Below are positions 5,357 to 25,483 of a DNA stretch of 64,000 bases, one piece after another (position 1 is the stretch's first letter; every line of letters begins with the position of its first letter). The position numbers and the translations under genes are program-made. Source of the stretch: Frondihabitans sp. PhB188 (GTDB lineage Bacteria; Actinomycetota; Actinomycetes; Actinomycetales; Microbacteriaceae); the NCBI RefSeq assembly GCF_003752365.1, contig NZ_RJUO01000007.1:1-64000 (forward strand), written 5' to 3'. The notes beneath the pieces were generated by a model. It made no database searches. It had not been told where the DNA came from and saw nothing but the letters and a program-made list of their open reading frames with translations.

Positions 5357-6784
5357 TTAGCGGGCGAATGCCGCCCGGGCTAGCGGCACCGACACCGGTT
5401 CCGCCTCACCCGGACGTGGGTAGTGCGAGGTAATGAGGACGCCGGTGGATGCCCATTCCAGGACCAGCCTGGTCACCTCCGCCCTCTGGAACGCCGTACT
5501 CCCGTCGATGCGTGCCCCGGTCCTTGTCTGCCAGCCCGCGATCCCGGCGAGGGCGCTGAGGGTGGCCCCGAACTGGTCGGCACCCGGGAGGATGTCTGCC
5601 CCGATCAGCAACAGCCCGAGGACCCCGATCTCCCGGTCGGCGATCCCTCGTTCCACCGGCAGGCGGGAAGCAATGTGCTCCCAGAGCACCTGGGGGTCAC
5701 GGCGCGCTTTCCTGCCCGCCAACGTCAACACCAGCCGGCCGCCGCTTTTCCAGGTCAACCCCAAAGCGGTGGCGGCTTCCCGGAGGGCTGCCAGCGGAGG
5801 AATGTCGATTTCACGGCTGCTTGCCCCCACCCACACGTTCTCCGGGTCGGCCACGGCCATCACCTCGGCCACGGTTGCCGGGGGCAGGTAGCCGGCCGCG
5901 GTCAGGGTGACACCTTCCTGACCGACCCCGTCCAGGAGCCCCTGAATGACATGGGTCCCGCGCACCATCACCTCACGGGTGACCGGTTCGGCGGTGTCCC
6001 GGGTGGTGTCGGCGAGGAACCCGGCCAGGTGAAGGCGCGCATCCGTCCCTAACCGGGACATGATCCCGGCCAACACCACCGGTGCTGCGTTCCCCAACTG
6101 ATGTTCCTCGAACCGTCCCAGTGCTGCTCGTGCCCGGGCGTCACGGTCAAGAGCCTTGTTGGTGTCGTCCGCACCGAACGTGTCCGGCCTGCCCGTCCGG
6201 CCTGTCCATTCCAGGGCCTCGACCATGTCCGGGTGTCGCCACTGGGCAGGCTGGTGGAGGGCTTTGAGGAGGTCTTCGTAGGACTCGATCCCGCCCACGT
6301 TCTCCGGGGGTGCTAACCGCTCCCCCGCAAGGCACCGCACCGCCCGGTCCTCTGAGGCACGAGCGCTGATGTCTTCCAGGGTGAGGACGTGTTCCCAGGA
6401 GTCCCCGAAATCGTAGAGATACTCCACCGTCTCCCCGACGCTTCGCAGTACCCGGTCAAGGCGCACCGTGTCCTCCGGGACCGCACCCGGGTCGGGTTCC
6501 GCATACGGGTCACAAGGGTCGTAGACCACCACGGCCGGGCGACCCGGGACGGTATCGAAAGTGAACTGGTGCAGGTGAGAGTTCGTCCACCCCATCACCG
6601 TCTGCAACACCTGATGCAACTCATCAAGCCGCAGATCCGACGGGCACCGGAACCGCCGCCACACAGGCGGTACCGACCCGACCAACTCCACCCGGATCGT
6701 GAACGACGACGAAAACCCCGCACGCACCCCCGACCGGCCAGCTGGGCTGTCCTTCGGGACAGGGTGCAGGTGAGGGGTGACCAT
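5357..6784 (-). CDS. Plasmid pRiA4b ORF-3 family protein
   Basis: A 475-residue protein. Residues about 25-200 form the pRiA4b ORF-3-like domain: FTIRVELVGSVPPVWRRF, LDELHQVLQ-VMGW-NSHLHQF, and YLYDFGDSWEHVLTLE. The family is widespread on plasmids and mobile elements and was first seen in an Agrobacterium plasmid; its biochemical role is not established. The remaining ~270 residues are helical and unrecognised, with a basic stretch (LTLAGRKARRDP) in the middle. The start is supported by TACACT 7 bases before the ATG, another leaderless pattern. No operon partner is evident. Confidence 0.85.
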   Translation of the reverse strand: MVTPHLHPVPKDSPAGRSGVRAGFSSSFTIRVELVGSVPPVWRRFRCPSDLRLDELHQVLQTVMGWTNSHLHQFTFDTVPGRPAVVVYDPCDPYAEPDPGAVPEDTVRLDRVLRSVGETVEYLYDFGDSWEHVLTLEDISARASEDRAVRCLAGERLAPPENVGGIESYEDLLKALHQPAQWRHPDMVEALEWTGRTGRPDTFGADDTNKALDRDARARAALGRFEEHQLGNAAPVVLAGIMSRLGTDARLHLAGFLADTTRDTAEPVTREVMVRGTHVIQGLLDGVGQEGVTLTAAGYLPPATVAEVMAVADPENVWVGASSREIDIPPLAALREAATALGLTWKSGGRLVLTLAGRKARRDPQVLWEHIASRLPVERGIADREIGVLGLLLIGADILPGADQFGATLSALAGIAGWQTRTGARIDGSTAFQRAEVTRLVLEWASTGVLITSHYPRPGEAEPVSVPLARAAFAR

Positions 6785-6881
6785 AACCGCCAGTGTAAAG
6801 AAACCCGGACGTCACGGATCCTGTCGAGGGGAGCGCGAGGGGCCAGCCCCTCGCCCCGGCCAGCCAGGCCGGGGCTGCCCC

Positions 6882-7484
6882 TTAGCCCTCGGGAATGTGC
6901 CGGGTCAGCTCCGCGGTGAGCTGCTGCACGGCGTACCAGCGGGCGTGGGCCGCGTCGCCATCGGCCGCCGTGTAGTCGCCGTATCCGGCTTGGTGCTCGA
7001 AGTCCTCGTGTCCGCGCTGGGCCAGGTCAACCAGCTCGGCCACCGCGGCGCGCGTCTCCGCGACATCGTGCGCGGTGGAGGCGACGAGCTGCACATCGTC
7101 GGCGTCACCCTCCCAGAACAGGTCGAGGACCGCGGAGCGGATCTTCTCGACGTCGACGCCGATAGCCCTGGCGGGGAACGAGACCGTAACCGTGACGCTG
7201 TGCACGGGGGCGGCCTCGTCGGCCTCTCCCCCGGTGTTCTCGCCCGTGGCGTACTGGTGTCCCCAGGCGAGACCGACGACGGGTACGGGCTGGCCGGTCA
7301 CGGCCTGGGCTGCCTGGTGGGTGTCCTGGCCCGGGTGCGGTGCACGGGTGCAGCTCCACTCGACCCCGGCGACGTCGTACGTCGTCGCGCCGCACGTCGT
7401 CGCGCTGCTGCTGAGGTCGAGGGCGGGGGCCTCGGGGTCGATCCCCTGGCCGATAGTGTCGGGGCGCTGATAGCTGATAATCAC
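6882..7484 (-). CDS. Unrecognised protein in the ArdC gene cluster
   Basis: A 200-residue acidic protein. GTG at 7484 is chosen because GGAGGGAAGGAACT lies immediately upstream. The sequence holds a weak beta-strand segment (SVTVTVSFPARAIGVDV) and a helical C-terminal half (VAETRAAVAELVDLAQRG), with no motif I can name. It follows the ArdC-like gene by 61 bases on the same strand, as in plasmid or integrative-element accessory operons. Confidence 0.6.
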   Translation of the reverse strand: MIISYQRPDTIGQGIDPEAPALDLSSSATTCGATTYDVAGVEWSCTRAPHPGQDTHQAAQAVTGQPVPVVGLAWGHQYATGENTGGEADEAAPVHSVTVTVSFPARAIGVDVEKIRSAVLDLFWEGDADDVQLVASTAHDVAETRAAVAELVDLAQRGHEDFEHQAGYGDYTAADGDAAHARWYAVQQLTAELTRHIPEG

Positions 7485-7545
7485 AGTTCCTTCCCTCCTC
7501 GGGGTGGGGAGGGGCGGCCGTGGCCGCCCCTCCTGGGTCAATGGG

Positions 7546-8466
7546 TTAGGCGGCGTCTTCGGCGTCGTCGGTGGCGTCCTCCTCGGGGGTGAGGATTCCG
7601 GCGATCTGGTGCGCGGTGCGGAGCACCCGCGCGGCGGTGGATTTGATCAGCTCGGTATCCCCGTCCGCCCACCCGGCGATATAGCCCACCGAATAGGCGG
7701 CGGTGTCGAACCCGACCATTCCCGCGACGACATAGGCGACGCTCTCGGCCTCGGTCTCCATCAGCCCGCGGTGTGCGGCGTATTCCTCGATGTCCTCGGT
7801 GTGCTCCAAGAGGACGTGCGCGAGTTCGTGAATAGTCGTTTTCGCGGCCTGCTCGGGCGAGAGGGATTCGTCAATCACGACAGTCATCGTCTCGGGGCGC
7901 GTCACCCCGTTCATGGTCCCGGGGAGGCTAGAACGCTCAACCGTCCAGCCAGTCTCGGTGAGGTAGGCGCTGAGGGCGTCCACGATGCCGTGATCCTTAG
8001 GCCCGGTGAGCTGGGCGGTGATGGTGCCGGGGTCGCCCTGCTCGGGGTCGATCAATTCCGTCTGTCCGATATCGAAAACCGACAGGATGGGGAAGCGGGC
8101 AATTCGCTTTTCGACTTCGTCGCCGTTCTCGTCCTCTTCGGTCACCTTTTTGGTCGAGTACCCGAAAATGCGGATGCCCTTCTCTCCCTTCCGAACCTGA
8201 CGGTTGAGGCTCTGCCACTTGCAGAAACCGGCAACCCGGGAGGCGTCCTCTCGCTGGCTGAGAATTAAGAGGAGGTTATTAATCGAGTACGCGTGGAACG
8301 ACTGCGCGAAGTCGAGAAAGGCGGTCCAGCGGGCCGAATCGCGGAGGGCTTCAACCTGCTCGCTGATGGAGTTGTGGAGGGCTTCGGCCTGGGCTTTCTT
8401 CTCCTCGATCGTCTTAGCGGGCGTGCGGGTGGTGGTCTTCTTGGTGGGGGTGGCGGTGGTGGTCAT
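7546..8466 (-). CDS. ArdC-like antirestriction protein with metallopeptidase motif
   Basis: A 306-residue protein with an N-terminal ArdC-type single-stranded-DNA-binding region (residues about 30-105, including the SINNLLLIL and VRKGEKGIRI blocks) and a C-terminal zinc-peptidase-like domain. The zinc motif HELAH is at 213-217, with an acidic METEAES helix at about 236-242 supplying a third ligand. ArdC-type proteins are carried by conjugative plasmids and protect incoming DNA from host restriction. The start at 8466 follows AGGAGCAGAAGCC. The C-terminus is very acidic (EEDATDDAEDAA). Its presence indicates an integrated plasmid or conjugative element. Confidence 0.85.
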   Translation of the reverse strand: MTTTATPTKKTTTRTPAKTIEEKKAQAEALHNSISEQVEALRDSARWTAFLDFAQSFHAYSINNLLLILSQREDASRVAGFCKWQSLNRQVRKGEKGIRIFGYSTKKVTEEDENGDEVEKRIARFPILSVFDIGQTELIDPEQGDPGTITAQLTGPKDHGIVDALSAYLTETGWTVERSSLPGTMNGVTRPETMTVVIDESLSPEQAAKTTIHELAHVLLEHTEDIEEYAAHRGLMETEAESVAYVVAGMVGFDTAAYSVGYIAGWADGDTELIKSTAARVLRTAHQIAGILTPEEDATDDAEDAA

Positions 8467-8544
8467 GGCTTCTGCTCCTGGTCTTGATCGGTGAGGATGG
8501 AAGGCGGGAGGGGGCAATTAGTGGTTGTCCCCTCCCACCTGCTG

Positions 8545-8751
8545 TCACTCCTCGCGGGTGCGGGTGAGGGTGTCCACGAACGTCACGAGTTCCGGGCCGG
8601 TGATCGTGGCCGTGTGGGCGAGTTCCCACCCGTTCCGCGCGAACGTCGCAAGGTCGCTATCGCGCTCTCCCAACTTGCGGAGCTGGCGCTGCAACGCCCC
8701 CTCTCCGACGACCGGAACGAACGTGGTCACGGTGGTGATCTGCTGACTCAT
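8545..8751 (-). CDS. Small unrecognised protein upstream of the ArdC gene
   Basis: A 68-residue protein (begins MSQQITTVTTFVPVVGEG) with a strong purine-rich ribosome site (GAGGAAGAGC) before ATG 8751. A central WELAHTATIT strand segment suggests a small alpha-beta fold. It is the first gene of the minus-strand set 8545-6882. Function unknown. Confidence 0.55.
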   Translation of the reverse strand: MSQQITTVTTFVPVVGEGALQRQLRKLGERDSDLATFARNGWELAHTATITGPELVTFVDTLTRTREE

Positions 8752-9195
8752 GTGCTCTTCCTCTTCCCTCTCGTTCTTTTTGCCGTGATTCTCAATCAGG
8801 TTTGTCAAGCCGAAACTGGCGTTCGAGTTGGTCCTGACTGTCACTCCCTCCCCCACGTCTTTTTCGCCTGGAAGGTACGAAGTACCGGCAGGGCCGCAGG
8901 CGGGAGGGCAACCCGCAGGGTGGCGGAGGGAGATTGTTGGCGCGAAATAAGGGAGCGCAGCGACCGCGTGCCAGGAATGTCGGAGGAGACAGCGGCTTGC
9001 CGCTTGCGTGGACGGCGGAGGCCCGTATGCTGCCGAAGGCTTCCAGGCGAAAAAGCGCGCAGCGCAGCAACACGGCGCAGGCCGCAGGCCGACGACCGCT
9101 AGTCCTTCATGGTTCTCATGGCGGCGCGGTCGACCTCGCCAATGGCACGCCTTCTGGCGCTAGTGCCGGGACACGGTTGTCGCTAAGTTCGGCTT
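8752..9195. other. Intergenic region between plasmid-like cluster and small membrane genes
   Basis: No gene is supported. The minus-strand side carries TTGACA near 8808-8813, a possible -35 element for the 8545-8751 gene, without a good -10 at the right distance. The other end holds TAAGTT at 9184-9189, serving the next gene. Confidence 0.4.
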
Positions 9196-9333
9196 ATGGA
9201 TACGACGACAGCAAAGGTTCTGACGGTCGTCGTGGGTCTCTTCAGCCTTGCCTTCCTCATCGTCGGAATCGGTCTGCTGTTTAGCCATAAGAGCGTGCTG
9301 CTTGGAGTGATCAGCCTGCGCTTCTTGTTCTGA
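9196..9333 (+). CDS. Small single-span membrane protein (45 residues)
   Basis: Frame MDTTTAKVLTVVVGLFSLAF and onward, with one membrane span (residues about 8-30) and a basic SHK turn. TAAGTT lies 6 bases before the ATG, the leaderless pattern. Function unknown; it precedes another small membrane protein by 26 bases. Confidence 0.5.
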   Translation: MDTTTAKVLTVVVGLFSLAFLIVGIGLLFSHKSVLLGVISLRFLF

Positions 9334-9651: not shown

Positions 9652-10869
9652 TCATGAGGCAGATAACCAGGAGTGTTCGCCCGGCCGACGGCGTAGCGTC
9701 GAAGTTCTGTCTGCTTGGGAGGCGGACTCGCCAGGAATTGCTGTCGGGTCGAAGGTTGTCTGGTCTCGGAAGATGGCCCAGATGACGTTGATCCGCCGCC
9801 GGGCGAGGGCAATGAGGGCTTGCTTGTGCGATTTACCCTCGCGCCGTTTCCGTTCATAGAACGATTTAGAGGCTGGGCAGGTTCTGGCGGCAATGAATGC
9901 GGCTTGGAAGCAGGCGTTTAAGAGCCGCCGGTCGTAACGTCTCGGGCGGTGGTGATTGCCGGAGATCTTCCCGGAATCGCGGGGAACCGGGGCGAGGCCG
10001 GCGAAGCTCGCAAGCCGATCGGGGCTCTCGAAGGCGGCGAGGTCTGTGCCCACGGCCGCGAGGAAGTCGGCTGCCAGCCGTGGGCCGAACCCGGGCACCG
10101 TCATCAGCGGTGCCGCGAGTTGGTTGTCCTTGAGCGCTGTGTCCATCTCTGCTTCGACTTCCGCGAGCTCATCGCGGATGCGGAGGAGGTCGTGGGCGTA
10201 ACGGCTCACGATGCGGGCGGCCGCGGCCTCACCTGTGACGACGGCGGTCTGCTCGTTGGCTGCACTGACGGCAACCGCGGCCAAGGTCGCCGACTTCCAG
10301 CAGTCCTGGCTCTTCAACCAGGTTGCCAGCCGTCGCTCCCCCATCCGGCGGATGGCGGCGGGGGTCTGATACTTGGTCAGCAGCACCAGCGGTCCGCGTG
10401 TGGTCGCGTAATTGAACGCGGCCTCGAGTGACGGGAAATAGTGGGCCATCAGAGCGCGGAGGCGGTTCACTGCGCGGGTGCGGTCGTGCACAAGGTCCTC
10501 ACGCCGGGCAGAGAACAGTCGCAGCTCGACGGTGACTTCTTCCGGTTGGCGCATGAGGTTCACGTCACGTCGGATGCGGGCCTGGTCGGCGATGATGACG
10601 GCGTCTTTCGCGTCGGTCTTGGCCTCGCCCCGGTACGCGCCGGAGGCATGGTGGATGGCGCGGCCGGAGATGTAATGCAGAGGCTGCTTATGGCTACCAA
10701 GCAGCGATTGCAGCAGCCCGGTCCCGCCGTGGTTGAGGTCTGTCGTCCAGGAGACCTCTGTTCCGCCCGGCAGGCCCGCGACGTCTCCCATCAGGGTCAA
10801 AATCTCGGTTTCTCGATTCTTGAATCGTCGGGACAGGATCTTGGTTCCATTGCCGTCGATGACGACTTG
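9652..10869 (-). pseudogene. IS110-family transposase, 5'-truncated
   Basis: Most of an IS110 transposase: the RuvC-like half with GEAKTDAKDAVI-AD, a linking helical region, and the C-terminal Transposase_20 half (VPGFGPRLAADFLAAVGT, LASFAGLAPVPRDSGK, the LNACFQAAF helix). The frame has no ATG or GTG in the first part and its N-terminus begins directly at VVIDGNGTKIL. The expected first strand with the leading catalytic aspartate (GxDxGKxxH) is absent. Just upstream the sequence switches to the FG-GAP gene on the other strand. The copy is therefore broken at its 5' end and probably inactive. The other end of the element is not delimited by a visible repeat. Confidence 0.8.
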
Positions 10870-12729: not shown

Positions 12730-13677
12730 TTAGACAATTTCGAGTGAGGCGTACGCGCTTTCGAAAAGTTTCTTCCCTCCGACGACTTCGAATTTTTGGA
12801 GGCAGTAGAGGCGCCAAATTTTGACCCATAGGGAGTCCTCGGGGCGAAGGTAGGCGACGGTGAGTCCTAGGCCGGCTGCGCTTTCGTGGGAGATCATTTG
12901 GCCGTGAGATTGCCATTTCTGGGTATCGCTGAGGTCTTTTGCTGCTTGTTCCGCGGCAGCCTTGTTTCGCAGCATGCCTTGGAAGAGAAGGTCGGCCGCG
13001 ATTGACTTCGACCGAGTCGTCATGCGTTCAAGTTTCCGCACTGTCGCCGGCTCCATTTTGGAGAGCATCAACCGCGCAACGGGATCGTGCGGTTCTTCTC
13101 GAAGTCGGGCGGAGTGGGTGGCATAGGCATCGAGGTAGCTTTGGGCGGACAGCAGGCTGTTGTGTCCGTTGGAGTCGGGAAGAAGCACCTGGGGGTCGAT
13201 GGCGCCGAGCTCTGAGGTGTCACTCATAACGACTTCGTCGGCGCCGAGAGCGATCAGGGTGCCGGCGCTTTTGGCGTAGTCAGGAACTATGACTCTGAGG
13301 TGGGCGTTGCCGACTTTTTTCCGGACCAGCATGATGAGCTTCTCGGCTGCGTCAATGTCGCCTCCCGGGGACTGGAGGAGCACATCGATAGCCGTTCCTG
13401 GCGGGATGTTATGGAGCAGGTCGACAACGCTGAGAGTGTCGAAGCGATCGACCTGCTGGTCGTCATCGGCAACGTAGCAGATCAGGGTTGCCCCCGTTTC
13501 TTTCTCGATCTCTCGAATGAGCGCCTGCCTGGCGTACCGGGGCGCATGGTTGGCCTCATAAAAGGGAGTGCGCGTGGGTCTTTTCGTTTCTTGGGTTGCT
13601 GGCGTCGGTTCGTACGATTCGGCGCCTTCGGGCTCGCTTGTGGTCGTCACGTGCGTGGTTCCGTTCTTTCGACCCAT
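12730..13677 (-). CDS. SDH-type (SppA/ClpP-fold) serine protease of the ubiquitin-like operon
   Basis: A 315-residue member of the serine dehydrogenase proteinase family, a ClpP/crotonase-fold Ser-Lys type peptidase. Visible are the substrate-loop motif QSPGGDIDAAEKL (about 102-114), the nucleophile S137 in VPDYAKSAGTLIALGADEVVM, and ELGAIDPQ (about 156-163). A 40-residue low-complexity Thr/Glu/Pro N-terminus precedes the domain and no signal peptide is seen, so it is cytoplasmic. Start ATG 13677; an open frame to 13968 has no similarity. The gene overlaps the DUF6527 gene by 31 bases and is the last of five co-directional genes. It may degrade or process targets marked by the ubiquitin-like protein; this is inferred from context only. 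Confidence 0.82.
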   Translation of the reverse strand: MGRKNGTTHVTTTSEPEGAESYEPTPATQETKRPTRTPFYEANHAPRYARQALIREIEKETGATLICYVADDDQQVDRFDTLSVVDLLHNIPPGTAIDVLLQSPGGDIDAAEKLIMLVRKKVGNAHLRVIVPDYAKSAGTLIALGADEVVMSDTSELGAIDPQVLLPDSNGHNSLLSAQSYLDAYATHSARLREEPHDPVARLMLSKMEPATVRKLERMTTRSKSIAADLLFQGMLRNKAAAEQAAKDLSDTQKWQSHGQMISHESAAGLGLTVAYLRPEDSLWVKIWRLYCLQKFEVVGGKKLFESAYASLEIV

Positions 13678-13994
13678 CGGATTCGGCCGTCGTGAACAAC
13701 GTAATGGCAGTGTCTGCCAGGGCTGCGCTCGTCGACGCTCGGACGAAGTGACAGAGGATTTGATTGGTCGATCTTCCAGAGGGGCCTGGTTTCGGGGTTC
13801 AGGTTCACCATGACTCGGTGGTGCCCGGAACACGGGCAATCGAAGACCAGCCACTTGGCGTTCCCACCGGCTTGGACAAGGACGGCTGTCTTGGGTGCGA
13901 GGGTGTCGTTCACGTCGAGGACGGATCTGACTTCCGTGGTGATCTTCCACCGGTAAGGGAGCCGCCAACCGAAGAATTTTCTTAAGAGGTCCAA
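13647..13994 (-). CDS. DUF6527 family protein
   Basis: A 115-residue protein with the DUF6527 pattern: a FDCPCSGHHRVMVNL block (C53, C55, H58, H59), RPLWKI, LSLRPSV, and a closing CHYVVHDGRIRWV (C96, H97). The cysteine/histidine set suggests a zinc site. I infer TTG at 13994 as the start, since no ATG or GTG is available and GGGG lies 5 bases upstream. It overlaps the end of the JAB-E1 gene by 13 bases and the protease gene by 31, which marks it as an integral part of the operon. DUF6527 genes are known neighbours of prokaryotic E2/ThiF/JAB loci; their role is unknown. Confidence 0.78.
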   Translation of the reverse strand: MDLLRKFFGWRLPYRWKITTEVRSVLDVNDTLAPKTAVLVQAGGNAKWLVFDCPCSGHHRVMVNLNPETRPLWKIDQSNPLSLRPSVDERSPGRHCHYVVHDGRIRWVERTEPRT

Positions 13995-15352
13995 TTGAGC
14001 CCCAAGAACATTTCGTCGTCGTACTGGATTGTCGCGGCCGGGTCGCAATAGTGGCCGGTCTTGGCGTCCGCGTGAGTGGCCCGAATGTCTCGGTCGTGAA
14101 TGCGCAGAATAACCTCGGAAGGTGCCGGTGGTTCGCCGTAGCCGATCAGACGCTCGAGCAGTTCGTTGACGGCCGTGGCGGCGACGAAGGTTGTGAAAGC
14201 GACGACGGCCGGTTCCACTCCGGGAAGCGCGGGGGCATAACCCTCCTTTTCGAGGGTTCGCTGTTCGTCCCGCGATCGTGTCTCCGCCGCGGCGAGGGCA
14301 AGGTCGACGCGGTTGCGGCAGATGAGGCAAGGTGCCGAGGGGTGCAAGGTGGTGACTCGGCCGAAGATGCCGGTGATGAGGTCGTGTTCGTTCGCGTCCA
14401 GCTGGACGCCGCAGTCGATGACGGGTGTCAGGTAGTAGTAGGGAATCCTGGACAGGCGAAGGCGTCCGGCATTGTCGTCCGTGCAGCCGAAGATGATGTC
14501 CGCATCTAAGAGCGCTTCGGCGTGCTGAAGAGCAGTGATGGCACCGAAACGCCGGTCGACTACTAGGTCGGGGGCGATGGCTTGAAGGTGGTCGCCGAGG
14601 ACGTCGATTTTGCGTTTGCCGACGTCGCCCGGTGTGGAGCCGTACACGCGGGTGACGTTGGAGTCAGACAGAGTGTCAGGGTCGATCAGGATCAGGTGTC
14701 GAACACCGAGGCGTACCAGCTGCTCGGCCGTGGCGGAGCCAGTCCCCCCGGCTCCAACGACAGCGACGGTGAGATCCGAAAGAAGCGCCTGAATCTCTGT
14801 CCCGAACGCTCGAATGTTGCGGTCAAAAAGAGCCGGGACCGACGGAAAGGCGGAATCGGCACTTCGGTGAAAGAGGAACCGGTCGCCGACCGAGACGAGG
14901 TACTCAATCGGGCTGACTTCTTCGCCGTCGAGGTGCCCGGTGAAGGTCAGATGCCCGTCTACGTGGCTGAGGACAATGGCACCATACTGCCCTGACCCTG
15001 TTCGGGCTGCGAAGACATCTTTGAGGGATGCGTCGACGATGTGGTCGTGGGTGCTGAGGCGGGGGGATGCGCCCTCGCCGGGGTGGGTGTGAAGCCACAG
15101 GGCAACGTTGCCGGTTTTCTCGGCCCGGCCGAGGGCATGCATGTAGCCCTCGGAGAGAATTTCTAAGGCGTCCTCGTCCCGTCGGACATACGCCTCGTCG
15201 GGGACCTCGTGGATCTCGGTCACGAGGAGGCGTATGCCCGACGCGGTGGCAACATGCCGCGCGAGGACAACGGCTCCTGTTTCGAGGGTTCCCTGCGCCA
15301 AGACGAGAAGCCTGTCGGCGTGTTCTTGGCGCATGACCAGTGAGGTCTTCAT
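13982..15352 (-). CDS. JAB deubiquitinase-like / E1 (ThiF) activating enzyme fusion
   Basis: A 456-residue fusion. Residues 1-160 are a JAB/MPN metalloprotease: E24, H88-x-H90-P and S100-x-x-D103 are the zinc and catalytic residues. Residues about 180-456 are an E1/ThiF adenylation domain: nucleotide loop G200-A-G-G-T-G205, LIDPD at 222-226, FGCTDD at 288-293, and a zinc-type C342-L-I-C345 pair. One polypeptide would thus both activate a ubiquitin-like C-terminus with ATP and cleave ubiquitin-like conjugates or precursors. ATG 15352 overlaps the E2-like gene's stop (ATGA). Known relatives sit in bacterial ubiquitin-like conjugation operons linked to phage defence. Confidence 0.92.
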   Translation of the reverse strand: MKTSLVMRQEHADRLLVLAQGTLETGAVVLARHVATASGIRLLVTEIHEVPDEAYVRRDEDALEILSEGYMHALGRAEKTGNVALWLHTHPGEGASPRLSTHDHIVDASLKDVFAARTGSGQYGAIVLSHVDGHLTFTGHLDGEEVSPIEYLVSVGDRFLFHRSADSAFPSVPALFDRNIRAFGTEIQALLSDLTVAVVGAGGTGSATAEQLVRLGVRHLILIDPDTLSDSNVTRVYGSTPGDVGKRKIDVLGDHLQAIAPDLVVDRRFGAITALQHAEALLDADIIFGCTDDNAGRLRLSRIPYYYLTPVIDCGVQLDANEHDLITGIFGRVTTLHPSAPCLICRNRVDLALAAAETRSRDEQRTLEKEGYAPALPGVEPAVVAFTTFVAATAVNELLERLIGYGEPPAPSEVILRIHDRDIRATHADAKTGHYCDPAATIQYDDEMFLGLNWTS

Positions 15353-15732
15353 AGTTCTCCTGCGGTTGTGAGTTCGGTTCTGAGAAGACGGATGTAGCTT
15401 TCGAGCCCGTCGATACCGGATTGCCATTGGGTCGCGTCGAGATGCCGTGACCAGCGTTGCCAGGTTCTGCCGTCGTGAATCTCCACCTGCTCGGTCGCGG
15501 TGATCACTCGTCCGTCCGCTTTGGCGAGGTGTGGGATGAGCCACCACATGTCGGGGGCGGTGTCGGGGTAGGTCGGGGCCAGACGGAACAGAACGTTGGC
15601 TGTTTCTGCGTTCAACCCTGGGGGGAGAACGAAGCCGATGAGTTCTACGTTGAGGGTCCCGGCTTCCTCGAAAACGCGGTGATTGATCCCGGCGGTTTCG
15701 AGGAAGTCGGTGTCAGTGGCAGGCAGTTTCAC
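15349..15732 (-). CDS. Prokaryotic E2 family E protein (no cysteine)
   Basis: A 127-residue UBC-fold protein of the prokaryotic E2 family E type. Family hallmarks are GFVLPPGLN, the LAPTYPDTAPDMWW strand-loop (E2-like YPxxxP), and the WQRWSRHLD motif that precedes the last helices. There is not one cysteine in the protein, so it cannot form a classical E2 thioester; the RH of WQRWSRH occupies the conserved position. Start GTG 15732 lies 5 bases after the ubiquitin-like gene's stop. It overlaps the JAB-E1 gene by 4 bases. It probably works as a scaffold or a noncanonical transferase between the E1 and the ubiquitin-like protein. Confidence 0.85.
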   Translation of the reverse strand: MKLPATDTDFLETAGINHRVFEEAGTLNVELIGFVLPPGLNAETANVLFRLAPTYPDTAPDMWWLIPHLAKADGRVITATEQVEIHDGRTWQRWSRHLDATQWQSGIDGLESYIRLLRTELTTAGEL

Positions 15733-15737
15733 GAGTG

Positions 15738-16214
15738 CTACTGACGGTTGAGGTTGGATCCGGGGTTGATGCGGCCCGGGGCGGTGAAGAAGCGGATACC
15801 GGCGTGCAGTTCGATGACGTCTTCGTCCTGCACTTTGACGTCGCGCTTGTCGGGGACGTCGAGCCACAGGTCCCTGTCGGCGGCGACGTCGGGCGAGGGG
15901 ACGACGCGAAGCTCGGCACCGGCCATCTTGCGTTTGAAGACCTCGTACTCGTGCCGGTCGATCTTGATAGTGACGGACGGGATCTCGGTGAAGAATCGCA
16001 TCCCGTCACGGATCTCGATGGTCTCGGCGTGCTCGAGGAGCCGGTCCTGTTCGTCGAGGATGTCCAGCCAGAGGTTCTTATCGGCCGGAACGTGAGGGTT
16101 GGGCAGATGACGCAAAGCATCGACAGTGGTCATACCTGCCTTCGTCGTGAAGGAGGTCCCGTCGATGAAGATGGTGACGAGGGAATCGGGGTGGTTGTTC
16201 TCGGTGCTGTTCAC
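15738..16214 (-). CDS. Tandem ubiquitin-like (multiubiquitin) protein
   Basis: A 158-residue protein of two beta-grasp repeats (about 11-78 and 80-145). Shared features are the opening strand (VTIFIDGTSF / VTIKIDRHEY), A-A-D--LWLD, D-IE---GIRFFT. This is the multi-ubiquitin family. The C-terminus is PGSNLNRQ with no Gly-Gly, so activation by the E1 would need either trimming or a noncanonical chemistry. GTG 16214 is the start, with GGAAAATC before it. First gene of the operon E2-(JAB-E1)-DUF6527-protease, divergent from a ribbon-helix-helix gene. Confidence 0.88.
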   Translation of the reverse strand: MNSTENNHPDSLVTIFIDGTSFTTKAGMTTVDALRHLPNPHVPADKNLWLDILDEQDRLLEHAETIEIRDGMRFFTEIPSVTIKIDRHEYEVFKRKMAGAELRVVPSPDVAADRDLWLDVPDKRDVKVQDEDVIELHAGIRFFTAPGRINPGSNLNRQ

Positions 16215-16309
16215 GATTTTCCAATCGATCGAAGGTGGTTGATTGGTATCACGGTATCACATCACCACGGTGGTTGACCACCAAGTCGTGGACGGAGCAT
16301 AATCGAGGT
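16215..16309. promoter_or_regulatory. Divergent promoter/operator of the ubiquitin-like operon
   Basis: Contains GGTGGTTGA twice (16234-16242, 16269-16277), the tandem octamer GGTATCAC (16245-16252 and 16253-16260), and the inverted pair GGTGG/CCACC (16270-16282). Toward the regulator gene: TTGACC (16274-16279), 18-base spacer, CATAAT (16298-16303), then ATG 6 bases on, so the mRNA is leaderless. The repeats overlap this promoter and are candidate binding sites for the ribbon-helix-helix protein. Confidence 0.65.
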
Positions 16310-16513
16310 ATGCCTACGCAGAAAGCAATGACGATTCGCCTCTCCGCAGAACAAGCGGACCAACTGGAAACAGTCGCGAACGTGGAAAACCAGCCCGTGT
16401 CCGAAGTGATTCGGGCAGCGATCAGCGGTCATATCGAGAGTCGACGAAACGACGCGACATTCCAGGCCGGCCTAAAAGAGCGCATCGAACGAGCCAAAGG
16501 GCTCCTTCAGTAG
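16310..16513 (+). CDS. Ribbon-helix-helix (CopG/Arc-like) DNA-binding protein
   Basis: A 67-residue protein: basic strand MTIRLSAEQADQLETVA, then helix 2 (NQPVSEVIRAAISGHIE) with the typical SEVIR turn, and a charged C-terminal helix. Such proteins dimerise and bind repeated operators, often as antitoxins or autorepressors. No toxin gene is adjacent. It is divergent from the ubiquitin-like operon across a repeat-rich 95-base spacer, so it is the obvious candidate regulator of that operon. A terminator follows 13 bases after its stop. Confidence 0.82.
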   Translation: MPTQKAMTIRLSAEQADQLETVANVENQPVSEVIRAAISGHIESRRNDATFQAGLKERIERAKGLLQ

Positions 16514-16683: not shown

Positions 16684-16716
16684 AGACCCGCCCCACATTC
16701 GTGGATAGGCGGGTCT
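16684..16716 (-). terminator. Terminator of the DUF3800 gene
   Basis: 9-bp stem AGACCCGCC / GGCGGGTCT. The arm nearest the gene overlaps the DUF3800 stop codon at 16715-16717. Confidence 0.7.
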
Positions 16717-17404
16717 AGCTGTTTAACGGCTGCGGTTCCCCGAATGGATCCGACCCGGACAAGAACGCCGCGTACCACTCCCATGCGAACTCGTTGCGGG
16801 GGTGCCGATCAACGTGGCAGTAAGCGATGTACGCCACGAGGTCCGCCATTTGGGTCCACTGAGAACGTTTCGAGTCGTGGAACATGGGGTCTTCGATGAG
16901 CCGTCGAGTGTCCAGCTTGAGGCCTCGATGGGCGTCGAAATAGGACGGCTCGGTTCCGTTCCCGTCCATACCTACAAGCGCAAAAGAATCCTGCTCGAGA
17001 AGCTCTTCGTCCCAACGGTTGACGAGTGCTTCATAGACACGGCCCCGCTCCGCCGAGTAGTCCTTACCGCGCAGGTTCGTGTGCCGGCACACGGCCCCAA
17101 CTTGGATGTCTGGGCAGTCTCGGAGGACCGCGAGACATTTCTCCGCCACTAGTCGACCGAGATCTTTCTTCAACTCGACCGGATCGACGGAGAGATTGCC
17201 GCGACCATTGATGTAGTCCGTGGCGTGTAATTCCTGCGATGGCGGAATGCGATGGTCTTCCCAGAGTTGCTTTCGGAACTCAAGCCACGTCCGAAGGGCC
17301 CGTCGCCATCCTTCGGGTGTCGTTTCCACCCACCCATAAACAATCCACCCGAAACGGTCGCTGCCGGAGTCGTCCACGTACAGCAGCCGGTCGAGAGATC
17401 CCAT
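16715..17404 (-). CDS. DUF3800 family protein
   Basis: A 229-residue DUF3800 protein: N-terminal LLYVDDSGSDRFGWIVYGWV (acidic DDSG motif), ELHATDY in the middle, D-NGTE at about 148, and the C-terminal DSKRSQWTQMADLVAYIAYC helix with D-x-QADL-type residues. The family has an RNase-H-like fold and is common in mobile and defence-associated DNA, but its activity is unproven. TAGCCT lies 6 bases before ATG 17404, so transcription is probably leaderless. It is not on the same transcript as the ubiquitin-like operon. Confidence 0.85.
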   Translation of the reverse strand: MGSLDRLLYVDDSGSDRFGWIVYGWVETTPEGWRRALRTWLEFRKQLWEDHRIPPSQELHATDYINGRGNLSVDPVELKKDLGRLVAEKCLAVLRDCPDIQVGAVCRHTNLRGKDYSAERGRVYEALVNRWDEELLEQDSFALVGMDGNGTEPSYFDAHRGLKLDTRRLIEDPMFHDSKRSQWTQMADLVAYIAYCHVDRHPRNEFAWEWYAAFLSGSDPFGEPQPLNS

Positions 17405-18226: not shown

Positions 18227-20235
<2,009 letters not shown>

Positions 20236-21985: not shown

Positions 21986-24900
21986 CTAGAAGACCCTACT
22001 GAAATCTGCCTCTACGCCGCAGCCCTCTTCGGCTCCATAGCTGGCTCCGAATCCCTCCGATCCTTCGCCACCTTGCGGGTAGGTGGCGGTCGCTATTTCA
22101 CCGAAGACGCCGAGAGGCCCATCTGCGGAGGTGCAGCTTGCACCTGAACCAATTCCGTAAGGGTCCTCTTCTTCGGAGTCTCTTGAGACGTGGTAGGAGG
22201 CTCCCTCCTCTCCGCCCAAGCCAAGCGTGATCGTTCCTCCCTGCTGGCCATCCGCTGCAACGTTCTGGTTGTACCCGACGCAGATGATGTCGCAGAACTC
22301 ACCTCCGTAGGACGTAACGGCTCCTGAAGAGTCGCTGCCGTTAATAGGGTCGTCGCTGGCATAGAGGTACTGATTTTGGGATTGACCGGAGGGGTCGACT
22401 TGGGTGAAGCGGCCGACTGTGGGGTCGTAGTAGCGAGCCCCCAGTTTGTAGAGGCTGGAGCCAGAGTCAAAGTAGCCGCCAATATAGCGAAGCGGGTTTG
22501 CCGCGACGACTGCGTTATTCGCGGCCGTGCCGTTCGTCGTGCTTGCTCGCAGTTCGCCGTAGGGAGAGTACGAATAGCCACCCGTGTAGCTACCGGTGGA
22601 GCTGAACAAGCCGATGACCGAACCCAGGGCGTCCTTGACGTAGTAATACGTGCCGGAGCCCGTTCGTTCCGAAATGAGGTCTCCAGAGGGGGCGCGGGTG
22701 TAGGCAGTTGTTGCAGATCCTTGAGTTTCGGTGGAAAGCCCAAGTGCGCTGCCTGTGTAGCTGGAAGATGGGGTGCTTCGCGATAGTTGGCTTGAGTTGC
22801 CTTGGGCGAAATCTGTTAGCGACTCGCTACCGATACTGCTGATGGCGTCACGGTCGTTGGGCGCCTGAGCTTGGCCAGTAATGCCGTCGGTCGTCTGGTC
22901 GCCGTTGGCGTCATACGCCCACGTGCCGGTGTCCGCACTCGTGCTGGTGATCTCGTCCCCAGCGTTGTACTTATACGTGACGGTTCCGGCGGTCGCCCCC
23001 GTAGAACCAGATCGAATTTCGGAAGTCCGGTTTCCGTCGGCATCATAGGCATAAGCCCATGAGGCAGTCTGGGTGCTGCCGCTCTTCTCCACCGCGGACT
23101 TGAGCCGGCCGAGGGTGTCGTACGTGTAGGACGTGACGGCACCTGCGGTGACACCGGTGATTGCGGTACTGGTCATGGACTGGATCTGCGTACGGTCGGC
23201 TGTCAGGCCGCTGCCGCCGGCGACCGTGTAGGAGTAGCTGAGGCTGTCCTTGACGGCGTTTGTCGAGTCGGTGGCGACGATCGAGATCGGGCGGCCCGAC
23301 GCATCGGGCTTGGTGGTGATCTTTGCGCCGCCGGGGAAGGTGCGGGTGAGTTCGAAACCGTTCGCGTTGTAGGTGTACTGGATGCAGCCGGAATTCGCGG
23401 CGGGAACACCCGACGCCGGGCAGGAGCCGCCCGGTTCAGTGGTGCTGTGGAGGGTGTTGTCGCCGTTGTAGGTGTAGTTGACGGTGCCGGACGTGTCGGT
23501 GTAGCTGAGGACGTTTCCGACCTCGTCATACGTGTACGACTCGGACGCGGTGCCGGGGCCGGTCTGGGACAGGGTGCGGCCGATGGCGTCGTAGGTCAGC
23601 GTCTCCGGGGTCTGCTGGGTGGAGTCGGTTGTCGTCTGCGGCAGGCCGTTGGCGTAGTAAGACACCTGGACGGTGGAGCCGTCTTGGTAGGTGGTCTGGC
23701 TCAGCTGGTCTCGGACGGTGTACGTGTACGTGGTCGTCTGGCCCTTGTTGTCTTTCACCGTCAGGAGGCGGCCGAGAGAGTCATAGTTGAGGTACTGCAC
23801 CTGCCCGATCGAGGACGGCGGAGTGACCTGGGTCAGGTTGCCGTTGGAGTCGTACGTGTAGTGCGTGACGCCGGCGTTGCCGTTGGTAGCCGTGCACACC
23901 TGGCCAGCAACACCGCCGCAAATGCTGCCCGTGGAATCCTCGTAGGTCTTCGTCACCGGGGTGACACCGGTTCCTCCGCTGGTGGAGTCCTTCTCAGAAG
24001 TCATGTTCCCGGCGGTGTCGTACGTGAATGCCTGCTTGTCGTTTGCCGCGTCCGTGGAGCACTTAGGCAGGTTCACGTTCCCGGTCTGGGTCGTGGTGCA
24101 CGAGCTGCTGGATGAGTATGAGGCGGTCGAGCCGGCACCGGTGGGGATGTTGACCGACGTTTGGTTGTTCAGGGAGTCGTATTTCGCCGTGGTCTGATTC
24201 CCCGGGGAGCCCCCAAGGGCGTCGGTGGTGGAGGTGACGTTGTCGTTGGTGTCATAACCCGCGGAGTGCTTCTGGCCGAGCGCATCCGTGGCGGAGAGCT
24301 CGTTGCCGGCGGCGTTCAGGGCGTAGGTGGTGGTGTGGTTGTTGCCGTCCGTCATCGTCGCGGACAAGGATCCGTACGTGTAGGTGCGGGAGCTGACCAG
24401 GGTCGACGGGGAAGATGCCAGCGCGACCTTGATCGAGGTGATGCGGGAGGAGGTGTCGTACCCGAAGGTGATCAGTTCGTCGCCACCTTGTGCGCCGGAG
24501 ACCTGAGCGGTCGCGATCCGCCCGGAGGAGTCGTAGGTGTAGTTCTCGATGACATTCCCGGGCTTGGTGACCCGGGAGAGCTGGCCTGCTGAGTTGCTGT
24601 CGTACTGCCAATCCCGGCCCGCGGAGTCATCCACGTGCGTAATCAACGAGGGGGTGTTTCCGGACCAGGAGACGGTGAATTGGCGGCCGGCCGCGTTCGT
24701 AATGGTGGAGACCTGGTTGGAGGAGTTGTAGGCGTAGTGATTGCCCGTGCCGTTCCGGTCGGTGTCGGAGGTGATGTACCCGTTTGAGGAGAACGAAAGC
24801 TTCTCCCCACCCTGGTTGTACTGAAGGACATACATCGCCGTCGTCGACGCGTCGTTTTCGGTCAGGGTGGCATTGAACCCGGTGGGTGCCGTCCACGTCG

Positions 24901-25483
24901 TGCCGGATTTCGTGAACTTCGGGGTAATGCCGGTCGGGCCATTGAACGCGGCCGTGGTACCGCTGACTCGAAGGCCGAAGTCCACCTGGCTCAGCGTGGA
25001 CGACCATCCCCCGCCGTAGGAACCAGCCGCGGTGGACAGGCCGTTGTAGAAACGGTCGTTGCGAAGATCAAGGCCCGGGCCGGACAGAGAACCATCCGAT
25101 GCGGTCAGGAGCAGGTTTCCGTTGGCCAGGTTCACCTGCGCCACGAGGTCGGGCGACAGATCGTCCTTGTCGAACGCGAAGTAAGGCAGCGAACCGAGAC
25201 CCGGGGCCGCGGCGGTCGTTCCCGACGGCGCCGAGAGAGGCTGGGCAACAGCGGCAGACTTCTTCGTCCCGCTCCCTGTTGCGTTGACCGGGGTCTGGGG
25301 AGCCCATGGCGTCGTCGGGGCATTTGCCGCAGGAATCGCGTGCTGATCAGCGGACGAAGGTGGCGTGAACACGGTGTTCCAGGCATCCCCAGTGGCTGCT
25401 TGCGCGACGGCTGGTGTTCCTACGAGCGCCGCTGTGAGGAGCGCCGATCCTGCGATGAGTGAAGTGATGGCACGTCTGCGCAC
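21986..25483 (-). CDS. Secreted RHS/YD-repeat protein with variable C-terminus
   Basis: A 1165-residue protein. The N-terminus is a Sec signal peptide (RRRAITSLIAGSALLTAALV, cleavage near AQA). Most of the chain is YD/RHS repeats of the G-x-x-x-x-x-Y-x-Y-D type (for example YDSLGRLLTVKDNKG, YDEVGNVLSY), ending in the RHS core YKLGARYYDPTVGRFTQVDPSG. The last ~95 residues (from SDSSGAVTSYGGEFCD) are Gly/Glu rich with four cysteines and match no toxin family I know. RHS shells carry C-terminal toxins that are exchanged by recombination. GTG 25483 has AGGGG upstream. Two small membrane-protein genes follow. Confidence 0.9.
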   Translation of the reverse strand: MRRRAITSLIAGSALLTAALVGTPAVAQAATGDAWNTVFTPPSSADQHAIPAANAPTTPWAPQTPVNATGSGTKKSAAVAQPLSAPSGTTAAAPGLGSLPYFAFDKDDLSPDLVAQVNLANGNLLLTASDGSLSGPGLDLRNDRFYNGLSTAAGSYGGGWSSTLSQVDFGLRVSGTTAAFNGPTGITPKFTKSGTTWTAPTGFNATLTENDASTTAMYVLQYNQGGEKLSFSSNGYITSDTDRNGTGNHYAYNSSNQVSTITNAAGRQFTVSWSGNTPSLITHVDDSAGRDWQYDSNSAGQLSRVTKPGNVIENYTYDSSGRIATAQVSGAQGGDELITFGYDTSSRITSIKVALASSPSTLVSSRTYTYGSLSATMTDGNNHTTTYALNAAGNELSATDALGQKHSAGYDTNDNVTSTTDALGGSPGNQTTAKYDSLNNQTSVNIPTGAGSTASYSSSSSCTTTQTGNVNLPKCSTDAANDKQAFTYDTAGNMTSEKDSTSGGTGVTPVTKTYEDSTGSICGGVAGQVCTATNGNAGVTHYTYDSNGNLTQVTPPSSIGQVQYLNYDSLGRLLTVKDNKGQTTTYTYTVRDQLSQTTYQDGSTVQVSYYANGLPQTTTDSTQQTPETLTYDAIGRTLSQTGPGTASESYTYDEVGNVLSYTDTSGTVNYTYNGDNTLHSTTEPGGSCPASGVPAANSGCIQYTYNANGFELTRTFPGGAKITTKPDASGRPISIVATDSTNAVKDSLSYSYTVAGGSGLTADRTQIQSMTSTAITGVTAGAVTSYTYDTLGRLKSAVEKSGSTQTASWAYAYDADGNRTSEIRSGSTGATAGTVTYKYNAGDEITSTSADTGTWAYDANGDQTTDGITGQAQAPNDRDAISSIGSESLTDFAQGNSSQLSRSTPSSSYTGSALGLSTETQGSATTAYTRAPSGDLISERTGSGTYYYVKDALGSVIGLFSSTGSYTGGYSYSPYGELRASTTNGTAANNAVVAANPLRYIGGYFDSGSSLYKLGARYYDPTVGRFTQVDPSGQSQNQYLYASDDPINGSDSSGAVTSYGGEFCDIICVGYNQNVAADGQQGGTITLGLGGEEGASYHVSRDSEEEDPYGIGSGASCTSADGPLGVFGEIATATYPQGGEGSEGFGASYGAEEGCGVEADFSRVF

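Follow-up and report, generated by a model that had tools for sequence, protein, structure and literature searches.

A probable Bub-type ubiquitin-like conjugation operon with a ribbon-helix-helix regulator and an SDH-type protease in Frondihabitans sp. PhB188

The window studied here is a stretch of 64,000 nucleotides from Frondihabitans sp. PhB188 (contig NZ_RJUO01000007.1, positions 1 to 64,000 of the forward strand), and it carries a compact set of ubiquitin-like conjugation genes between positions 12730 and 16513. Five genes on the minus strand (12730-16214) are transcribed in the order ubiquitin-like protein (Ubl), E2-fold protein, JAB-E1 fusion, DUF6527 protein and SDH-type protease, and a ribbon-helix-helix (RHH) gene is divergent from them (Table 1). 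The operon type that Iyer, Burroughs and Aravind listed as row 6e in 2006 (PMC1779556) was later named Bub, for bacterial ubiquitination-like, a name used in an EMBO J. 2026 paper and an Essays Biochem. 2025 review. We consider it probable that these genes form a Bub operon, one from a sub-branch of its own, working in the manner proposed below.

Table 1. Genes and promoter features of the operon and its divergent regulator
Feature	Positions	Strand	Basis
Two-repeat ubiquitin-like protein, BubA-like, 158 aa	15738..16214	-	PF14452 46 bits
E2-fold protein, BubB-like, 127 aa, no Cys	15349..15732	-	Prok-E2_E PF14462 102 bits; BubB match
JAB-E1 fusion, BubCD-like, 456 aa	13982..15352	-	ThiF PF00899 122 bits; BubCD match
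DUF6527 protein, 115 aa	13647..13994	-	PF20137 64 bits
Serine protease of SDH type with a ClpP fold, 315 aa (306 aa if GTG 13650 is the start)	12730..13677	-	PF01972 58.7 bits
Ribbon-helix-helix (RHH) DNA-binding protein, 67 aa	16310..16513	+	PF01402, PF19807
Operator-like pair of GATACC half-sites, 8-base pitch	16245..16258	-	paired GRTAYC in relatives
Palindrome GGTGGTCAACCACC in divergent promoter	16269..16282	.	function inferred only

A sequence-only reading of this DNA had described five closely spaced minus-strand genes facing a DNA-binding gene, and that layout is confirmed, with no broken frame in any of the six open reading frames. The E2 gene starts with GTG 5 bases past the Ubl stop, E2 and JAB-E1 are joined by an ATGA overlap, JAB-E1 overlaps the DUF6527 gene (TTG start at 13994) by 13 bases, and the latter overlaps the SDH gene by 31 bases if this begins with the ATG at 13677; an alternative GTG at 13650 reduces that overlap to 4 bases. 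For the RHH gene ATG 16310 is the most likely start, since a frame opened at 16235 would cross operator-like repeats that are common to its relatives. In a Pfam profile search all six proteins exceed the curated cut-off of a family, which upholds the earlier assignments, including that of the 158-residue protein, which belongs to Multi_ubiq (PF14452, cut-off 24.5 bits) and is matched in two stretches. The RHH protein scores 23.9 bits with RHH_1 (PF01402, cut-off 20.5) and 27.4 bits with DUF6290 (PF19807, cut-off 27).

For comparison 45 loci were assembled, namely 26 from one GTDB scan, 14 of the 148 records of a plasmid search, four stretches of the same phylum (from three genomes) and the window; the scan took the E1 of the window as its query and therefore favours close kin, and L001-L007, short cuts of loci read otherwise, were skipped in the profile search. 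Iterated profiles found E1 in all 45 loci, Ubl and E2 in 43 each, DUF6527 in 40, SDH in 20 and RHH in 19. A tree of 37 E1 rows places the window within a clade of 17 rows with a support of 100/100, and 16 of these 17 have both RHH and SDH; among the other 20 rows RHH occurs in none and an SDH-like gene in one (L042, a Rhizobium plasmid), with L029 not assessable for SDH, since it holds just 410 bases after DUF6527 and absence is not shown there. The tree and the counts of 37 rows omit L008 and L028 (frame-broken E1), L020 (a near-duplicate of L009), L031 and L032 (near-duplicates of L030), L039 (a fragment), L036 and L041. The sequence-only reading expected these genes to occur together elsewhere, and the same gene set is indeed present in 18 other RHH-bearing loci, which excludes chance. 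The closest E1 (62.8%) is that of L008, a Microbacterium plasmid, in which E1 and SDH are in pieces, and in L028 it is E2 and E1 that are in pieces. The members of the E1 clade come from Actinomycetota, Pseudomonadota (alpha and gamma), Acidobacteriota and one Geobacter metagenome-assembled genome, and the E2 family turned up in one genome out of 7 searched for the genus, one out of 396 for the order and four out of 396 for the phylum, each figure including the genome of the window; this wide span combined with a patchy presence means that the operon moves between lineages.

The profile of the Ubl (A3) matches solved bacterial Ubls, the best being BilA (8u38, 7.3e-18); matches to SAMHD1 (best E 0.12) were taken as noise. 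Gly152, in the motif FFTAPGRINPG, is invariant in the 15 rows of this profile and precedes a tail of six residues. The same ending, INPG followed by 1-15 residues, is found in 18 of the 19 RHH loci, window included, and the remaining one, L028, stops at INPG; the Ubl of L013, L030-L034, L037 and L038 has the Gly of TEG as its very last residue, and in nine other loci its frame continues into E2. The tail implies that the Ubl would have to be matured by proteolysis. The sequence-only reading highlighted the tandem arrangement of the Ubl, and the two repeats are real, but they are a minority state, shared by only 3 of the 19 RHH loci with the window included. L021 has an additional, separate Ubl gene, and the Ubls of L024 and L025 have what by eye appears to be a long, charged, coiled-coil-like N-terminal extension.

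The nearest solved relative of the JAB-E1 fusion is BubCD of Citrobacter (9ea4, 3.7e-24 over residues 24-409). The JAB half alone scores 13.4 bits, below the Prok-JAB cut-off of 25, and it is assigned despite this because of the BubCD match and the invariant JAMM residues. These residues (E24, H88, H90, S100, D103) are found in 37/37 rows, as are G200, G205, R235, K248, D285 and D292 of the adenylation half, and the zinc and nucleotide motifs are thus intact, as had been claimed. C342 is kept in 33 and C345 in 32 of the 37 rows, both missing in L042-L044 and L047, and together with H434 and C436 of the window clade they likely form a structural zinc site and not a catalytic cysteine. Cys290, beside Asp292, is found in 36/37 rows, and Tyr372 is invariant (37/37); by comparison with ThiF and MoeB we take this tyrosine to lie near their crossover loop, and it could be a candidate carrier of an E1-bound Ubl intermediate. 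A phage collection gave no E1 match at E up to 1e-5.

The E2-fold protein has Citrobacter BubB (9eae, 4.4e-8) as its nearest solved relative. A thioester-type E2 was rejected, and the eukaryote-like thioester hand-over does not apply, because the protein has no cysteine at all; the best cysteine column among the aligned E2s is occupied in 16/37. Ser95, in the motif WSRH, is the only Ser, Thr or Cys that is invariant in the 37 aligned E2s (the frame-broken L028 left out), and the longer QRWSRH is invariant in 22 rows. Its conservation fits the oxyester chemistry that is reported for Bub. The earlier view of an operon for activation, transfer and removal stands in so far as the conjugation genes are intact, but the transfer cannot make use of an E2 cysteine.

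In 18 other loci, too, the Ubl gene has an RHH homologue in divergent orientation, and the divergent promoters have a pair of GRTAYC half-sites at a pitch of 8 bases. Of 18 loci (L020 omitted) 10 have the pair exactly, 15 if up to one mismatch is allowed and 17 if up to two are, the locus without a pair being L022. Mean counts in 500 dinucleotide shuffles were 0.006, 0.108 and 1.39, respectively, but the motif had been spotted by eye in the very sequences, themselves related, in which it was later counted, and these figures therefore overstate the surprise and serve as a description, not as an independent test. Judged by eye, the pair lies at about the -10 position, downstream of a TTGTCAA-like element of the relatives, with which the palindrome of Table 1 aligns; such a placement of a putative operator would suit repression by an RHH dimer. 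Automatic promoter and terminator scans of the region gave nothing beyond shuffles. The RHH gene holds the place of the CapW, CapH+CapP or CapK+CapS regulators, which are frequent though not universal in Bub and were not found here. Of 544 Bub operons in the EMBO J. 2026 paper, 219 have CapW or CapH+CapP and 59 have CapK+CapS, and its text contains none of the whole words ribbon, RHH and CopG.

The last gene of the operon encodes a protein with Lys136, Ser137, Asp161 and His258, present in 16/16 rows (L008, L020, L028 and the short L042 omitted), and its model, with a predicted local distance difference test (pLDDT) score of 90.6, matches the folds of PH1510, SppA and ClpP; its 75 bits are below the NCBIfam equivalog cut-off of 250. 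It comes directly after DUF6527 in 17 of the 18 other RHH loci, and in L019 it lies upstream of RHH. In L018, the Geobacter metagenome-assembled genome, the slot is held by another gene (7721-9307, joined to DUF6527 by an ATGA overlap), which matches the PADLOC dCTPase model (3e-141) and Pfam dCMP_cyt_deam_1. A RhuM-family gene comes after this dCTPase-type deaminase gene. L042, on a plasmid of Rhizobium sp. T1473, has an SDH/ClpP-like gene in two overlapping frames after DUF6527 (5810-7105) and no RHH. From the single case of L018, the end of the operon may be a position for exchangeable effectors rather than for processing of the Ubl. The alternative, that the SDH protease matures or deconjugates the Ubl, is a serious possibility that we nevertheless do not favour. 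Its steady position after DUF6527, the tail that the Ubl has beyond its Gly in all but one of the 19 RHH loci and the SDH-like gene in the distant Bub operon of L042 all speak for it; against it, L018 keeps a six-residue Ubl tail without SDH, so that SDH is not required for trimming there, L028 has SDH and no tail, and JAB and DUF6527 are already at hand for the trimming. SDH as the sole Ubl maturase is disfavoured by the tail of L018.

As to the purpose of the operon, a link to defence is something we infer, and a conflict with phages or mobile elements would most likely be what it serves. A Fic-family gene with a small gene adjoins RHH in 7 of the 19 clade loci compared, and both of the two Fic proteins that were tested match the PADLOC candidate PDC-S04; together with the deaminase of L018 these neighbours suggest a defence setting. 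The pair resembles a toxin-antitoxin pair and lies at 3225-4015 in L009 and at the same place in L010, L011, L012, L024, L025 and L027. The window itself has no Fic-type neighbour, a DUF3800 gene (16715-17404) lying directly beyond RHH, and on that side no gene cluster common to at least three clade loci was found. The operon region is flanked by an IS110 transposase (9652-10800) on one side and IS21-type transposase and helper genes (18227-20235) on the other; further out are a pRiA4b ORF-3-like protein and an ArdC-like antirestriction protein (5357-8517), a stretch that is 84.8% identical to a Frondihabitans plasmid (6828-8788) and a large RHS-repeat protein of 1165 aa (21986-25483). A plasmid contig and a chromosomal mobile region are equally likely: the contig has 68,660 bases and the closest E1 relatives found in a named collection are plasmid-borne, which points to a plasmid, and genes for phosphoenolpyruvate carboxykinase and aldehyde dehydrogenase in the right part of the window speak for the chromosome. 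That the operon serves a stress response or the maintenance of mobile elements, and not phage defence, is plausible enough to be kept in mind, if not what we would expect. It agrees with the insertion-sequence, ArdC and pRiA4b ORF-3-like genes nearby and with the Fic genes beside related operons, the EMBO J. 2026 paper leaves it open, and 70% of PF14452 genes adjoin potential toxin-antitoxin loci (Toxins 2016); L018, where a defence-type deaminase stands in for SDH, speaks against it.

Ye and colleagues reportedly describe a novel family of Ser-His serine proteases in Bub operons. In the DUF6527 protein Ser86 and His97 are invariant in 24/24 rows, C53 being the only invariant one of its cysteines. 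In the AlphaFold2 model (pLDDT 88) the protein is all-beta, with residues 81-91 and 94-101 as adjoining strands, and from the boundaries and register of these strands Ser86 and His97 would be on one face of the hairpin; a ribosomal match (E 2.3) was taken as noise. A second cysteine, four residues on, is retained by rows that do not belong to the window clade, and the window clade has lost this C-x3-C spacing. The 2006 survey (PMC1779556) described a C-x3-C...H-x2-C signature and suggested a role in target recognition, and the DUF6527 protein could accordingly be thought of as a metal-binding adaptor that selects targets and not as a hydrolase. The second cysteine outside the clade and the absence of a protease fold match agree with this, but it is unlikely, given the lost spacing in the window clade and the invariance of Ser86 and His97, with C53 as the sole invariant cysteine, in the 24 rows. 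DUF6527 is unmentioned in the literature searched, which lay outside the two main Bub papers (Gong et al. 2025; Ye et al. 2026), so the clade may already be reported.

Ye and colleagues reportedly describe the E2s of Bub as functional. That the E2-fold protein is instead catalytically dead and RWD-like, merely presenting the Ubl while E1 conjugates directly, follows the 2006 reading of the Cys-less domain as inactive (PMC1779556) and is highly improbable in view of such reports, of the invariant QRWSRH and of Ser95 in all 37 aligned E2s.

Returning to a working Bub operon, we propose that JAB or DUF6527 would trim the six-residue tail of the tandem Ubl and expose Gly152, which the E1 half would adenylate with ATP. 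The Ubl would then be handed to E2 as an oxyester and not as a thioester, with Tyr372 as a candidate site for the E1-bound intermediate and Ser95 as the likely acceptor, and E2 would attach it to target proteins. JAB, by its zinc, and DUF6527, by Ser86 and His97, could either mature the Ubl or strip it from targets, and the SDH protease would be an accessory, more likely an effector alongside conjugation than a Ubl maturase. RHH would repress both divergent promoters via the paired GRTAYC, with release under stress or infection. One can go further and imagine a Bub sub-type with oxyester conjugation and an exchangeable effector in its end slot, silenced by RHH on paired GRTAYC instead of by DNA-damage regulators, in which the protease (in one lineage the deaminase) acts on or is activated by Ubl-tagged proteins, as a tag-and-degrade immune module; this is a speculation that we think more probably wrong than right by a wide measure.

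Several points weigh against what we propose. Searched with the PADLOC models up to an E of 1, the Ubl, E2, SDH and RHH proteins gave no match, and the DUF6527 model has no match in the PDB at E <= 0.001 (Foldseek), with the conservation of two residues as the whole support for the suggestion that it may be a Ser-His hydrolase. The view of SDH as an effector depends mainly on one replaced locus, L018. The oxyester chemistry is carried over from Bub, which according to Ye and colleagues reportedly runs entirely via oxyester intermediates. Protection against phages by Bub operons is undemonstrated, according to the EMBO J. 2026 paper.

The existence of bacterial Bub systems is already established, and an intact, compact operon like this one is well suited to tests without being a system of a new kind. 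Three points are testable in one 3.5-kb clone: conjugation by a Cys-less E2 through an invariant serine, DUF6527 as a Ser-His hydrolase, and a link between the Ubl tag and the protease. Should the last of these hold, with a protease dedicated to the tag, the operon would offer a small counterpart to the proteolysis that ubiquitin directs.

Among known systems, the antiphage system Bil (BilABCD) has a Ubl, an E2 with a catalytic Cys, and JAB and E1 as separate proteins. The window shares Ubl (with BilA as its best match), E2, JAB and E1 with it, but membership was dropped, since E2 has no Cys and JAB and E1 are fused in one protein of 456 aa; DUF6527 is a further difference. Cap2 of type II cyclic oligonucleotide-based antiphage signalling systems (CBASS) and other E1-E2 fusions have a ThiF-type E1 in common with the window, and PADLOC models for E1-E2 match it (best 3.3e-16); CBASS was likewise considered and dropped, as E1 is fused to JAB and not to E2, and no cyclase is among the five operon genes. 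The SDH protein shares its fold and its four conserved residues with the PH1510, SppA and ClpP proteases, but differs from them in its fixed place in a Ubl operon, which has no ATPase gene. Row 6e comprises a polyUbl of 1-3 repeats, a Cys-less E2/RWD, a JAB-E1 and a metal-signature protein, and the window agrees in its PF14452 gene, its Cys-less E2, the JAB N-terminal to E1 and DUF6527 beside E1, departing from it in the lost C-x3-C spacing; the text of 2006 mentions neither ClpP nor any Clp or serine protease, and where it speaks of a "ribbon", three times in all, a zinc ribbon is meant (PMC1779556). With Bub the window shares Ubl, Cys-less E2, JAB-E1 fusion and DUF6527 in the same order; its E1 keeps the CxxC pair that the Bub rows L042-L044 and L047 lack, and its Ubl ends in INPG and a tail, unlike the many other Bub rows with a TTEG end or a run-on into E2. 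The core of the operon is thus already known, from row 6e and from Bub, and its distinctive additions are the RHH regulator and the SDH protease.

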